DNA from: Candidatus Hydrogenedentota bacterium
GTDB lineage: Bacteria > Hydrogenedentota > Hydrogenedentia > Hydrogenedentales > CAITNO01
DNA: 64,000 bases
Assembly (NCBI GenBank): GCA_012730045.1
Contig: JAAYBR010000111.1
Location: 1 to 64,000 of the forward strand
Direction of reading: 5' to 3'
Under the pieces are notes generated by a model. That model ran no database searches, was not told the DNA's origin, and saw only the letters and a program-made list of their open reading frames with translations. The stretch's first letter is position 1. Each line of letters opens with the position of its first letter. This document shows positions 30,827 through 60,869 of the stretch, one piece after another. The translations under genes and the position numbers were made by a program.

Positions 30827-30937
30827 GAAGGAAGAGGGCGCGGCAAGCAGCGCCCCTGCAAGGGGATTCCCCGGTTTTTCTGCGTGTGCCCGGGGCATGG
30901 GCTGGTAGGGGCGCTGCTTGCCGCGCCCTCTTCCTTC
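30827..30937. repeat. Solo REP pair (inverted) of the RAYT-associated family
   Basis: The left arm GAAGGAAGAGGGCGCGGCAA...GCGCCCCT and the right arm AGGGGCGCTG...GCGCCCTCTTCCTTC are perfectly complementary over about 31 bases around a ~50-base loop. It is the same unit as in the arrays at 57478-57745 and 58396-58640. Nothing further is recognisable between here and 31171. Confidence 0.9.
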
Positions 30938-52615: not shown

Positions 52616-52985
52616 GCGGGCATTTTACCGGATTTCGGGCACCCGTTGGAAACGCGCGGCGCGGACACGGATCGGCGGGTAAGGCAGGCTTGGAGCGGAG
52701 CCGATGCGGGAACGAGATTGCTTCACTTCGTTCGCAATGACGGGATGGGGGGCGGTCTGGTGGTGCATCGGCGGGGAACGCGTCATGGCGAGCGAAGCGA
52801 AGCCATCTCGTTCCCGCCGTGGCCCTGCCTACAAGAGATTGCTTCCCTCGCTGGCGCTCGTTCGCAATGACGCGTTGCGGAGTGGAGCGCGATCAAGTCG
52901 AGGAGGTCACCACGAGACCTTCGCCCGGGCAGTCATTGCGAGCGAAGCGCGGCAATCTCGTTCCCGCCAACGTTCTTTACCGGCG
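52616..52985. repeat. Cluster of four GAGCGAAGCG-type repeats in two inverted pairs
   Basis: Units at about 52706-52740, 52781-52819, 52832-52872 and 52931-52968 read alternately GCGGGAACGAGATTGCTTC...GCAATGACG and its complement CGTCAT.GCGAGCGAAGC...CTCGTTCCCGCC. Together they fill the gap between two genes; nothing coding is supported. Confidence 0.85.
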
Positions 52986-53846: not shown

Positions 53847-53907
53847 GAGGTTTGCTCTCCGGGGGGGGTGAATGCCCTGCCGTTATCAAGGGCATGATGG
53901 GCGCCCG

Positions 53908-54052
53908 CCATCCGGGTCCCCCCTTGAGGGGGGTGTCCGCGTCTTCGCGGACGGGGGATGTTCTTAGGGCCCGCCAGCATCCCGGACTCCGGAACATCCC
54001 CCGGTTCGCTCCCGCGAACCGCCCCCCTCGAAGGGGGGCCCGGATCGTACGG
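53908..54052. repeat. CCCCCC-TTGAGG palindromic element, intergenic copy
   Basis: A terminal inverted repeat of ~24 bases (ATCCGGGTCCCCCCTTGAGG / CCTTCGAAGGGGGGCCCGGAT-like) encloses two nested pairs: GTCCGCG-tctt-CGCGGAC and GGGGGATGTTC...GAACATCCCCC. A second copy is inside a gene at 59431-59566. Confidence 0.85.
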
Positions 54053-54168: not shown

Positions 54169-54346
54169 ACGGACGCGCGCTTGGGCGCGCGGTGCCAGGC
54201 TAGAGCCTGGCGATCCCAGGGGGGGAGGAGTCCGGAGTCTGGAGTCTGGAGGAAGAAAATGAGGACGCGCGCTTGGGCGCGCGGTGCCAGGCTAGAGCCT
54301 GGCGATCCCAGGGGGGAGTAGCCTGTAGCCTGAAGCCTGTAGCCTG
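54169..54346. repeat. Tandem hairpin repeat plus CCTGTAG/CCTGAAG heptamers
   Basis: A ~60-base unit (GCGCGCTTGGGCGCGCG, then CCAGGCTAGAGCCTGG and CGATCCCAGG) occurs twice, at about 54169-54228 and 54261-54320. Between them is a GGAGTCT tract and after them a heptamer tract (gtagcctgtagcctgaagcc). The tract ends 20 bases from the typA stop. The rest of the 53847-54366 gap shows nothing else. Confidence 0.8.
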
Positions 54347-57355: not shown

Positions 57356-57477
57356 ACGCAACAAGCGGACGGACGGACCGGTTTTTGGCCCGGAAGCGGT
57401 CAAAAAAAAGACCATAAGGGAATTTCATACCTTCAAAAAGGACCAATCCGCGTCATCAGTGACATTTTTTGTCACTT

Positions 57478-57745
57478 GAAGAGGGCGCGGCAAGCGGTGC
57501 CCCTACGATCGTGGGCCCGGGGTCCGCGCATGATCGTGGGCCTGGGGTCCGCGTATGTAGGGGCGCTGCTTGCCGCGCCCCCACGATCGTGGGCCCGGAG
57601 TCCGCGCATGTAGGGGCGCTGCTTGCCGGGCCCCCACGATCGTGGGCCCGGAGTCCGCGCATGTAGGGGCGCTGCTTGCCGGGCCCCCACGATCGTGGGC
57701 CCGGGGTCCGCGCTGTAGGGGCGCTGCTTGCCGCGCCCTCTTCTC
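57478..57745. repeat. REP array downstream of the RAYT gene
   Basis: Units GAGGGCGCGGCAAGC.G.GCCCCTAC and the inverse GTAGGGGCGCTGCTTGCC alternate with a spacer ACGATCGTGGGCCCGG.GTCCGCGC. Several are head-to-tail copies of one composite, the rest inverted. A separate AGTGACA-ttttt-TGTCACT hairpin lies just before it at 57458-57476. The array ends 6 bases from the RAYT stop codon. Confidence 0.9.
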
Positions 57746-57750
57746 CCCGT

Positions 57751-58335
57751 TCACACCTCCCAGGGCATTTCCGGCGGTTTGCCTGGGGAATATTCCCTCA
57801 ACATGTCCGGCGCGGCGTATTCGGGATTCTGCCGGTCGCACTCCCAGCGCGCGGGATTCTCGAGAACGTATCGGCGCACCACGTCAAGCTCTTTTTCATT
57901 TCGAATGACATGCTCATAGTAGTTGCGCTGCCAGAAGCTGCCCGTTCGCTCGAGCATGCGGTTCAGCCGGACAGCCGACTCGGACTTGAAGGCGCGCACC
58001 ACCTGCGCAAGCGTTGGTGCTTTTTTCGTGTCGCAGCCCGAGGAGGCGTCAGAGTCCCCCTCGGCGCGGGTGAGCAGAAACACCGCGTGCACATGATTTG
58101 GCATGACCACTGACACGTCCAGCACCATTCCCGGAGAACGCCGGGACAGCCCGTCCAGTGCGTCCCTCACGAGCCCGCCTGCGGCGTTCAGGCGCATGCA
58201 GCCGTCCATAATCCGCCCCAGATCGGGCGCGCCGGACGTTGTGCAAACAGTAAGGAAATAGGCCCCGGGGGTGCTGTAGTCGTACTCCCCCAGTCGTATG
58301 GACCGCCGATGGTGAATCTTTGGGTCATAGGGCAT
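57751..58335 (-). CDS. REP-associated tyrosine transposase (RAYT, IS200-like)
   Basis: 194 residues. The HUH motif is H81-V-H83 (VVMPNHVHAVFLL). The nucleophile lies in SFWQRNYYEHVIRNEKEL (Y139 or Y140), followed by YVLENPARW, all typical of the Y1 transposase TIGR/RAYT group. The N-terminal RRSIRLGEYDYSTPGAYFLTVCT fits too. The start ATG 58333-58335 has no good ribosome site, suggesting low expression. It lies between two REP arrays, as expected for a single-copy RAYT that mobilises or maintains its cognate REPs. Confidence 0.93.
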   Translation of the reverse strand: MPYDPKIHHRRSIRLGEYDYSTPGAYFLTVCTTSGAPDLGRIMDGCMRLNAAGGLVRDALDGLSRRSPGMVLDVSVVMPNHVHAVFLLTRAEGDSDASSGCDTKKAPTLAQVVRAFKSESAVRLNRMLERTGSFWQRNYYEHVIRNEKELDVVRRYVLENPARWECDRQNPEYAAPDMLREYSPGKPPEMPWEV

Positions 58336-58395
58336 TGCGGGACACCTGGCATGTTGACACCCGGTGATTATACAGGGGCGGAGGGCGTCACGCGA

Positions 58396-58640
58396 GAAGG
58401 AAGAGGGCGCAGCAAGCGGCGCCCCTACGGCCGGGACTGGTCGGCTCTCCCGCACGCGCGAAGAGGGCGCGGCAAGCGGCGCCCCTACGATCGTGGGCCC
58501 GGGGTCCGCGCATGTAGGGGCGCCGCTTGCCGCGCCCTCTTAACGCAAGCACCACTCCCCGCAAGGGCGGATTGGGCGGTGTCATCGTGGGACTCATGGC
58601 ATGCGCCCGTAGGGGCGCCGCTTGCCGCGCCCTCTTCGTT
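58396..58640. repeat. REP array upstream of the RAYT gene
   Basis: Four REP units in two inverted pairs: GGAAGAGGGCGCAGC..., GAAGAGGGCGCGGC... then GTAGGGGCGCCGCTTGCC twice. One pair encloses the same ACGATCGTGGGCCCGG spacer as in the other array. Variant units have GCGGCGCC instead of GCAGCGCC in the stem, with compensating changes on the partner. Confidence 0.9.
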
Positions 58641-58664: not shown

Positions 58665-60869
58665 CTACCGAAGCACCGACACCATCCGCTCCCGCCAGGC
58701 CTGCATTTCGGCGGATGCGCCGGGCCCCTCTTCGTTGAGCAGCTCGCGCGCCTCTTCCGCGCGGCCCAGCCTCAGAAGGAGCTGGACGCGCATGGCGCGG
58801 ATTTCGGGGGCGTTGGCGGCGGCGAGTTGGTCGTATTCGCGGGTAAGGTCTTCAAGCCGTTTGGTGAACGGGGGATTGGGCGACAGGACGTGGCGCGGGG
58901 GCGCGCCGGGGGCGCATTGGACGGCGCGCGCCCAGGCCGCTACGGCGGCGGCCTGCCGCCCGTCGGCCCACTCGGCCTCGCCGAGGGCGAACCAGATTTC
59001 GGGCCATGGCGCGGCGGCACCCTCGGCCAGGGCGCGGAGCCGGGACGCGGCCTCCGCCGTCTTCCCCTCCGCGAGGAACATGCGGGCGACGCCGAAGCGG
59101 GCGGCCGCCTCGGGCGTGACGGCCATCCCGCCGCCGCCGACCATGCGCTCCAGAAGAAAGTCCAGGTCTGCGGCCAGCGCCGCCTCGGCGTAATAGGACG
59201 ACCGCGACAGCCCGTCCCCCGCCTCCGCGACCTGCTGTGCGGCGGCATAGGCGTCGTGCGCGCCGGTCCAGTCGCCGCGGGCCTCCGCCGCCAGCCCGGC
59301 CTCCATGCGCTCGGCGAAGGTCTCCGTGGTGCGCGTGAGCCGCTGGAAGGTGAGCTGGTTCACGCACACGAGCCCGCCCAGCGCGAGGAGCAACACCGCC
59401 ACAACGGGGGTGAACCGAAGCGCGCGCGCCCTCTTGGTCCCCCCTCGAGGGGGGTGGCCGCGTCTTCGCGGACGGGGGATGTTCTTGGTGTCCGCCAGCG
59501 CCCCGGAATCCGGAACATCCCCCGGTTCGCTCCCGCGAATCCCCCCCCTGAAGGGGGGACCAAGAGCCGCGAGCCGCTCAGGACCGACTTTCAGGGCGGG
59601 CGCGGCGAGGAGCGCGGCGAGCAGGGGGAACAGCGACAGGGCCTGGAAGGGCTGGATGGCGAGCATCCAGAAGAGCACGCCGGACGATGCAAGGGCAACT
59701 CCCCCCAGCCGAACGCGGGCGCGGTCGCCGGACCGGAGCAAACCGCCGCGGATGCCGGACACAAGGGCACCCCAGAACCACAGATACCCCGCCAGCCCCA
59801 GCACCCCGGTCTCGAAAAGAAGCAGCAGCGGCATGCTGTGGATGGCCGTGCCCATCCAGACATGGCGGTCGGCGGCCGCGCCGATGACGGCGGGCGCGGC
59901 GCCCAGTCCGCAGCCTGTCAGCCAATACTCCGGCAGCAGCCCGAACGCGAGCCGGAACACGTACATGCGCGACGAGAACGAGGGGTCGTCTGGGGAGAAC
60001 ATGCGCATTGCGCGCGCGGCCAGCGTCTGCGGATAGTCCGTCAGGAAGAGCAGCCCGAGTCCCACGAGGGCCGCCGCTGCCGCCGCCAGCAGCGTCCGCC
60101 GCGCGGCGGGGCCGGAGCGTCCGCGGATCGCGGCGAGCAACGCCGCCCCGGCCAGTGCGGCCACGGCGACCAGGCCGCTCCGGGAGAAGGAGATAAGCAC
60201 GCCCGCGAGGGAGACAAGCACCAGAAGAGCCGCCGCCAGGCCGCCGCGCCGTCCGCAAAACAGCAGGGCCGCCGCGGGCAACGCGGCGAGCAGGGGCAGG
60301 ATGCCCTGGTTGAAGTCCGGGGTGGTGACGGCCATGCGCACAAAGGCGCCGCCGCGCAGATCCCCGGCGATGCGCTGCCCGAAATAGGTCTGCGTGCCCG
60401 CGAGGGCCGGGGCCAGAAGGCCCGCCGCGCACGCGACGCCCGCCGCCCCCACCAGCGCCGCCGACACCGCGAGCACCCGCCACCCGAACGCCGCGTCGTC
60501 CGGCGCGCGGAGACAGGGCAGCGCGGTCAGGAACAGCGCGAGGTACAGGGCGTACTGGACCAACAGCGCGCGGGACGCCGCCGGGTCGGCGGAGTGGAAG
60601 TACGACTGCCCGCAGGCGAGGGCGATCAGGAGGACCGGCCCCGCGAAACGGCGCGCCGCCGCGCCCAGCAGGGAAAGCGTGTCGTCGCCGTGCAGCAGCG
60701 CCAGGGGGGCCGACGCCGCGATCAACACGAGCCCCGCCGCCGACGCGACGGTCCCGCCGAAAGGCAGGCGCTGGAAAATCTCCCACGGCCACGCCGCGAG
60801 AAACAGGACCACCGCCCCCGCGCACACGGCGCGGAGGGGGGGCTCAGCCCGCAGGAGGAGCGTCCGCAT
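58665..60869 (-). CDS. O-antigen ligase (Wzy/WaaL-type) with C-terminal TPR region and inserted repeat element
   Basis: 734 residues from ATG 60867-60869. Ten or more membrane helices occupy ~1-440, with GISFSRSG-like (LISFSRSGLVAVAAL) and the periplasmic loop between ~265 and 355, as in O-antigen ligases. Helical TPR-like repeats follow from ~490 to the end (AEARGDWTGAHDAYAAAQQVAEAG, RFGVARMFLAEGKTAEAASRL). Between the last two membrane segments lies a ~43-residue Pro/Gly/Arg-rich insert (PPFRGGIRGSEPGDVPDSG...) encoded by a palindromic element. The start overlaps the upstream TPR gene by 26 bases. Likely role: polymerising or attaching a surface glycan. Confidence 0.8.
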   Translation of the reverse strand: MRTLLLRAEPPLRAVCAGAVVLFLAAWPWEIFQRLPFGGTVASAAGLVLIAASAPLALLHGDDTLSLLGAAARRFAGPVLLIALACGQSYFHSADPAASRALLVQYALYLALFLTALPCLRAPDDAAFGWRVLAVSAALVGAAGVACAAGLLAPALAGTQTYFGQRIAGDLRGGAFVRMAVTTPDFNQGILPLLAALPAAALLFCGRRGGLAAALLVLVSLAGVLISFSRSGLVAVAALAGAALLAAIRGRSGPAARRTLLAAAAAALVGLGLLFLTDYPQTLAARAMRMFSPDDPSFSSRMYVFRLAFGLLPEYWLTGCGLGAAPAVIGAAADRHVWMGTAIHSMPLLLLFETGVLGLAGYLWFWGALVSGIRGGLLRSGDRARVRLGGVALASSGVLFWMLAIQPFQALSLFPLLAALLAAPALKVGPERLAALGPPFRGGIRGSEPGDVPDSGALADTKNIPRPRRRGHPPRGGTKRARALRFTPVVAVLLLALGGLVCVNQLTFQRLTRTTETFAERMEAGLAAEARGDWTGAHDAYAAAQQVAEAGDGLSRSSYYAEAALAADLDFLLERMVGGGGMAVTPEAAARFGVARMFLAEGKTAEAASRLRALAEGAAAPWPEIWFALGEAEWADGRQAAAVAAWARAVQCAPGAPPRHVLSPNPPFTKRLEDLTREYDQLAAANAPEIRAMRVQLLLRLGRAEEARELLNEEGPGASAEMQAWRERMVSVLR
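59431..59566. repeat. CCCCCC-TCGAGG palindromic element inside a coding sequence
   Basis: Terminal repeats CTCTTGGTCCCCCCTCGAGG / CCTGAAGGGGGGACCAAGAG enclose the same nested hairpins as the copy at 53908-54052. The outer bases differ from that copy, yet remain complementary within each copy. The reading frame of the O-antigen ligase gene passes through without a stop. Confidence 0.9.

Follow-up and report, generated by a model that had tools for sequence, protein, structure and literature searches.

The palindromic repeat read in frame within the O-antigen ligase gene of the 64,000-nucleotide stretch analysed here (the window) belongs to a dispersed family of structurally conserved module pairs, which also interrupt a second protein in frame, are missing from alignable sites in a genome of the same genus, and bracket genes of the DUF559 family, the products of which are homologous to a homing endonuclease. 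The explanation that we favour, at a probability of about 0.6, sees in the palindrome a non-autonomous copy of a mobile element carrying DUF559, moved in trans; that DUF559 is the cause of the mobility, and that it acts by breaking and copying, is what we infer. The bracketing points to a possible agent of spread for a widespread family of bacterial repeats regarded as 'orphan', and it is likely that the open literature, covered mainly through titles and abstracts, holds no prior account linking DUF559 with mobility or with flanking repeats.

Anatomy of the element

The initial annotation described the same element twice in the window, once between genes and once in a coding region, and the two copies (53896-54040 and 59417-59561) are indeed 86% identical across 145 bp. 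Both are cross-shaped palindromes, each made of two inverted modules, with outer arms of 24 nt that are 88-92% complementary and an inner arm pair of 12 nt that is perfect; as single strands they fold with z of -8 to -10, none of 200 shuffles being as good. Each module runs from hairpin 1 (CCCCCC-TTGA-GGGGGG) through hairpin 2 to a third run (GGGGGATGTTC), hairpin 2 being of type A (CCGCGTCTTCGCGG) or type B (TTCGCGGGAGCGAA), with one of each in most complete copies, and between the two modules lies a core of about 25-30 bases. The features of the window are:

58665-60869, minus strand: O-antigen ligase (Wzy_C) with a C-terminal TPR-like region, 734 residues, the insert being residues 435-480
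59431-59566, no strand: whole in-frame element within the ligase gene, two inverted modules plus variable core
59431-59454, plus strand: left hairpin 1 and outer arm (CTCTTGGT CCCCCC TCGA GGGGGG)
59455-59473, plus strand: left hairpin 2, type A (TGGCCGCGTCTTCGCGGAC)
59473-59484, plus strand: left third G-run and ATGTTC, a perfect complement of 59513-59524
59485-59512, no strand: variable core; copies bearing DUF559 hold the putative nuclease gene at the corresponding place
59513-59524, minus strand: right third run (GAACATCCCCCG as read on the plus strand)
59524-59542, minus strand: right hairpin 2, type B (GATTCGCGGGAGCGAACC on the minus strand)
59543-59566, minus strand: right hairpin 1 and outer arm (CCCCCC TGAA GGGGGG ACCAAGAG)
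53910-54045, no strand: intergenic sister copy, the site of which is empty in the same-genus genome G001

A search of the whole genome from which the window comes (G000, a Hydrogenedentota draft of 4.46 Mb in 155 contigs) gave about 13 full copies and about 16 partial ones, i.e. halves and composites. The element shares with MITEs its shortness, its many copies, its terminal inverted repeats and its lack of a gene. The complementarity of the outer arms within a copy, noted earlier for the window, holds for both copies there but fails as a rule over 15 genome copies, in which involvement is confined to roughly the outermost 4-5 bases (TCTT or TCCG), the end type differs between the two ends of a copy in about five of the 15, and pairing past these bases is no better within copies than between them. 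The earlier argument from compensating outer arms, as well as that for insertion into palindromic targets, consequently loses its support, and extended flank palindromes were rejected on the same comparison.

A motif of approximately GCCTGTGGCAGAAGG is common to the flanks of five copies (L002, L004, L008, L009 and L011), 15-25 bases outside them, and is perhaps the worn outer end of a longer element. Adjoining the intergenic window copy are two identical 54-bp repeats (54171-54224 and 54263-54316, 92 bp apart) containing the palindromes CGCGCGCTTGGGCGCGCG and CCAGGCTAGAGCCTGG; a CGTC-type REP (ATTGCTTCGCTTCGCTCGCAATGACG) occurs at 52695-52967 of the window and nested within the element copies L014, L015 and L025. 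A match of a window copy to Rfam whalefall-1 (19.3 of 37 bits, far under threshold) is absent at 13 related loci and was dismissed as chance.

In-frame insertions

The ligase open reading frame (Pfam Wzy_C/O-antigen ligase, E 3.9e-13) reads through the copy at 59431-59566 without a stop; the frame is intact, as first described, and the insert comes to about 45 residues instead of the 43 or so originally given. In the predicted structure it sits between the last two long helices ahead of the TPR-like region. An AlphaFold model, built on an alignment of 12 ligases, has confident helices on both sides and a single long stretch of very low confidence (residues 439-484, pLDDT 37-48), the only such stretch of the model, which coincides with the insert. 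In the comparison that the initial annotation had named as able to refute it, none of twelve ligase orthologues from the family and order was found to have a homologous segment at the insert site, which favours insertion; their linkers there range from about 18 residues (G007, G015) to about 31 (G002) and are unrelated in sequence, and similarity to the window ligase picks up again past the insert. The best view of the insert, on the model, is that of a loop which the protein tolerates and which is probably disordered. The element is a GC-rich palindrome poor in stop codons (37 in the copies, fewer than the 56.4, sd 6.7, of shuffles), so that reading through it gives a Pro/Gly/Arg-rich linker, predicted to be disordered.

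Another copy, L014, lies in frame in MenC (Pfam MenC_N and MR_MLE_C), where it contributes about 58 residues and holds the nested CGTC-type REP mentioned above; the MenC orthologue of G002 is contiguous, i.e. empty at this site. By codon-usage score, the ligase and MenC copies are the only two of 15 two-module copies with coding sequence on both flanks on one strand. Moreover, a related element has inserted in frame into the ligases of genus g7 (G007, G012 and G015) at another loop, near residue 250 of the window ligase, as a complete two-module unit in G007 and as one clear module in G012 and G015; this unit is itself dispersed, each genome giving 40-53 matches. The different positions within the ligase imply that the two insertions were independent. 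The proposal that a mobile palindrome has inserted in frame into a protein gene is supported by the orthologues, by the empty G001 sites and by the MenC copy. In-frame protein insertions by such repeats are in this way documented outside Rickettsia, including two independent ones in one ligase family. There is also a full copy (L049, G001:C558:162-302) near the start of the open frame of a cytochrome-c-biogenesis-like membrane protein, either upstream of the start codon or N-terminal.

Empty sites

In G001 the element is absent at all six alignable intergenic loci. The extra DNA in G000 amounts to about 190-260 bp at a divergence too great for exact ends to be fixed, so exceeding the conserved portion of about 135 bp, and no target duplication is recognisable in the G000/G001 comparisons, in which divergence blurs the ends. 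At individual loci, loss in G001 instead of gain in G000 is possible.

Structural conservation and likeness to BoxC and triplex motifs

Among 18 distinct 19-base versions of hairpin 2, counted gap-free by script, 95% of cells are paired, as against 66% (maximum 78%) with shuffled partners, and seven of seven pairs show changes on both sides. Between families the sequence of hairpin 2 is entirely different and the pairing almost always retained; the structure of the module is conserved, beyond its sequence alone.

An antiparallel intrastrand triplex requires a third strand in mirror order. Where purine runs are mixed, as in eight relatives, the third run agrees with the purine arm of hairpin 1 at 71 of 71 positions in mirror order and at 51 of 71 in direct order, a weaker result than an unbiased count, the cases having been picked and aligned by hand with T or A counted alike; an automatic parse, which was too greedy, gave no signal (0.78 versus 0.75 shuffled). 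Both window copies have the C-run, G-run and third G-run, pure G being unable to distinguish mirror from direct order. The layout, a hairpin plus a third purine run in mirror order with a predicted C-G-G triplex, is that of the intrastrand triplex motif. The published search definition takes bridges of 1-6 nt (PMC4666352) and the window modules bridge by a hairpin of 18-22 nt, longer than that definition allows, so that they are a variant of the triplex motif, not strict members, although relatives with short bridges, e.g. ATTTA, do exist. Holder et al. (2015, PMC4666352) described 23 copies of the 37-nt motif in Escherichia coli MG1655, always intergenic, and BoxC/PIT/triplex motifs with variable surroundings in more than 260 bacterial genomes; they never found mobility activities nearby.

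DUF559 genes bracketed by modules

G000 has exactly two DUF559 (PF04480) genes, and both lie between two inverted modules of the element's family, with inverted-repeat scores of 50 and 57, where shuffles reach at most 14. These loci are candidates for the related autonomous element with the same ends that a MITE requires. In genus g7 the ligase-type repeat likewise brackets DUF559 genes (G015:C259, G012:C280 and G007:C140).

The wider survey used two non-random sets, the best-scoring DUF559 matches and relatives of the local protein. A flanking inverted-repeat score of at least 18 was reached at 16 of the 31 loci of the first set, in many genomes, compared with 0.7% of random window placements and 2.2% in other loci. 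In the second set, gathered by protein similarity with a five-sequence profile and sharing at least three identical loci with the first, the same score was reached at 20 of 27 loci versus 0 of 693 control placements on the same contigs. These loci span Bacteroidota, Hydrogenedentota, candidate phyla and a Negativicutes MAG, and their repeats mostly have an element-like layout (CCCCCTTTGAAGGGGG then GGGGGATGT). About half of the 31 first-set loci have no strong flanking repeat; at least five of these are intein-like open reading frames, which would not need palindromes.

In L084, L087, L088, L090 and L095, DUF559 occurs within open reading frames with intein-like blocks and no flanking palindromes, some intein-like DUF559 frames ending beside DNA-methyltransferase-like sequence. 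In L077, L078 and L080, DUF559 is part of one long open reading frame with host-gene-like sequence, where in-frame flanking palindromes encode PSPSGRGVGGEG-like stretches and the gene around them resembles that of a DNA methyltransferase, of type I or another kind.

DUF559 as a putative nuclease

A 16-sequence DUF559 profile compared with solved structures matches 3hrl (1.9e-34) and 3r3p (1.9e-5), the latter being I-Bth0305I, a homing endonuclease of a mobile intron; the predicted fold also matches 3r3p, and Vsr more weakly. The invariant residues (E29, D57, E68, D70, H74 and D83) fit, in our reading, a putative EDxHD-like nuclease site, and by homology, predicted fold and conserved acidic residues DUF559 goes with the EDxHD/Vsr-type class.

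A DUF559 protein of Caulobacter, VsrA, causes an SOS response in mutants of the methyltransferase scmA, interpreted by the authors as an effect of mismatch repair (PMC12907096). That VsrA provokes SOS implies that proteins of the DUF559 type can damage DNA in vivo. The pairing of DUF559 with repeats offers an alternative, or a complement, to the reading of such proteins as solitary Vsr repair enzymes (PMC12907096).

A relative in E. coli

In MG1655 a BoxC-type repeat lies between fabI and ycjD, the latter a DUF559 gene present in 3,365 of 5,426 E. coli genomes. We equate this repeat with BoxC on its sequence, layout and dispersal, E. coli genomes having it at a median of 14 places (range 1-25). 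It closely resembles repeats beside DUF559 genes of other phyla, and with the one at L072, in a distant genome, it scores 27.5 against a control maximum of 13.5. A BoxC-type copy between pstA and pstB is polymorphic in E. coli: the filled site is longer by 92 bp, and its junctions carry an 8-bp direct repeat (ACACGGTT) that is single in the empty site. This pattern fits insertion with target duplication, and a precise deletion between repeats would look identical. The 8-bp repeat is known from this one E. coli locus, a second (L210/L211) being too diverged to define the empty site. In the fabI-sapF region (L117-L119), the two strains examined that lack ycjD beside fabI have a TetR/RND efflux operon in its place.

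Explanations for the spread of the repeat

In the mechanism that we propose, the full form of the element would be a gene for a DUF559 (EDxHD/Vsr-like) nuclease between two inverted modules. The nuclease would recognise the folded module and cut donor or target DNA, and repair of the break would copy the module pair into the cut. Loss of the gene would leave module pairs of 130-145 bp still open to mobilisation in trans, much as RAYTs move REPINs, and of the copies landing in genes only those that keep the frame and fall within a tolerant loop would persist. Counting against this account, the module is on one side only of ycjD in E. coli, and in the fragmented draft of G001 element copies are present and a DUF559 gene was not detected. 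The excess length of the extra DNA in G000, with its lack of a recognisable target duplication, and the first-set DUF559 loci with no strong flanking repeat also speak against it.

DUF559 could instead travel as a passenger, or home into the repeats as target sites without being their mover. The main rival takes the latter course: the modules would be moved by another transposase, a RAYT/Y1 enzyme or one as yet unrecognised, and DUF559 would home into the dispersed palindromes as sites of cleavage or insertion. We think this unlikely, even though DUF559 resembles homing endonucleases, its gene is placed exactly in the core between two modules, RAYTs are thought to mobilise REPs (PMC3733652) and five Y1_Tnp genes are detected by Pfam in G000. 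Against it, the exact signature strings of the module occur at none of these five loci, as a REPIN/RAYT system with a repeat-bracketed Y1 gene would have them, the RAYT of the window is flanked by a different repeat, and both DUF559 genes of G000 are bracketed, an association that recurs across phyla. The window RAYT (57751-58455) was for that difference in its flanking repeat rejected as mobiliser. This RAYT/Y1_Tnp gene, on the minus strand, has its own repeats of about 53 bp (GTAGGGGCGCCGCTTGCCGCGCCCTCTT) at 57451-57742, 58433-58638 and also 30827-30937, and with them is apparently a REPtron unrelated to the element.

Passive spread of structure-prone DNA by replication slippage or template switching (Holder et al., 2015, speak of 'genomic instability'), for which no enzyme of its own would be needed, would agree with the irregular insert sizes in Hydrogenedentota and with the highly variable, mobility-gene-free surroundings of the E. 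coli triplex motifs (PMC4666352), but sits so poorly with the two-module units, the precise E. coli empty site with its 8-bp direct repeat and the strong bracketing of one nuclease family across phyla that we rate it as improbable. Least credible of all is a true repeat of the Rickettsia palindromic element type, in which in-frame palindromes are selected to create protein segments: the repeat is palindromic, has both intergenic and genic copies and is in frame in two proteins, but coding sequence flanks just 2 of 15 two-module copies on both sides in one strand, disorder is predicted for the inserted segment, the inserted peptide bears no sign of selection, and there is the link between the element and a nuclease gene.

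A broader form of the DUF559-borne reading, which we put forward tentatively and at slightly worse than even odds, is that DUF559 together with BoxC/triplex repeats constitutes a class of mobile element that crosses phyla and has so far gone unrecognised. Both its nuclease-bearing units and its REPIN-like miniature units would be driven by a homing-type nuclease that acts on folded DNA. If true, such a class would explain BoxC in E. coli as well as the in-frame protein insertions. The recurrent pairing with one nuclease family makes the origin of BoxC/triplex repeats testable, including in E. coli K-12 (ycjD).

Comparison with known systems

The parallel with Rickettsia palindromic elements, drawn in the initial annotation, is apt for the outcome, a palindromic repeat inserted and read in frame within unrelated proteins (here ligase and MenC), and does not extend to the build, which is that of a BoxC/triplex-type module pair linked to DUF559 genes; by contrast with the Rickettsia elements, most copies here are intergenic and a candidate autonomous form exists. 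BoxC, the PIT element and TM_ECO have the same C-run, G-run and mirror-order third G-run, and also occur as inverted pairs dispersed over strains and phyla, whereas the window element bridges by way of a second hairpin, is a regular inverted pair, has two in-frame genic copies and is tied to DUF559. The EDxHD homing endonuclease I-Bth0305I and, more weakly, Vsr resemble DUF559 in profile and fold; I-Bth0305I resides in a group I intron, whereas DUF559 here is a small free-standing protein bracketed by triplex-type modules, besides which intein-like open reading frames with DUF559 exist too. REPIN/RAYT systems (REPtrons) and MITEs are likewise dispersed inverted pairs of hairpin modules, but the candidate autonomous partner here, whose gene the modules bracket, would be a nuclease of the PD-(D/E)XK/EDxHD type, not a Y1 tyrosine or DDE transposase.
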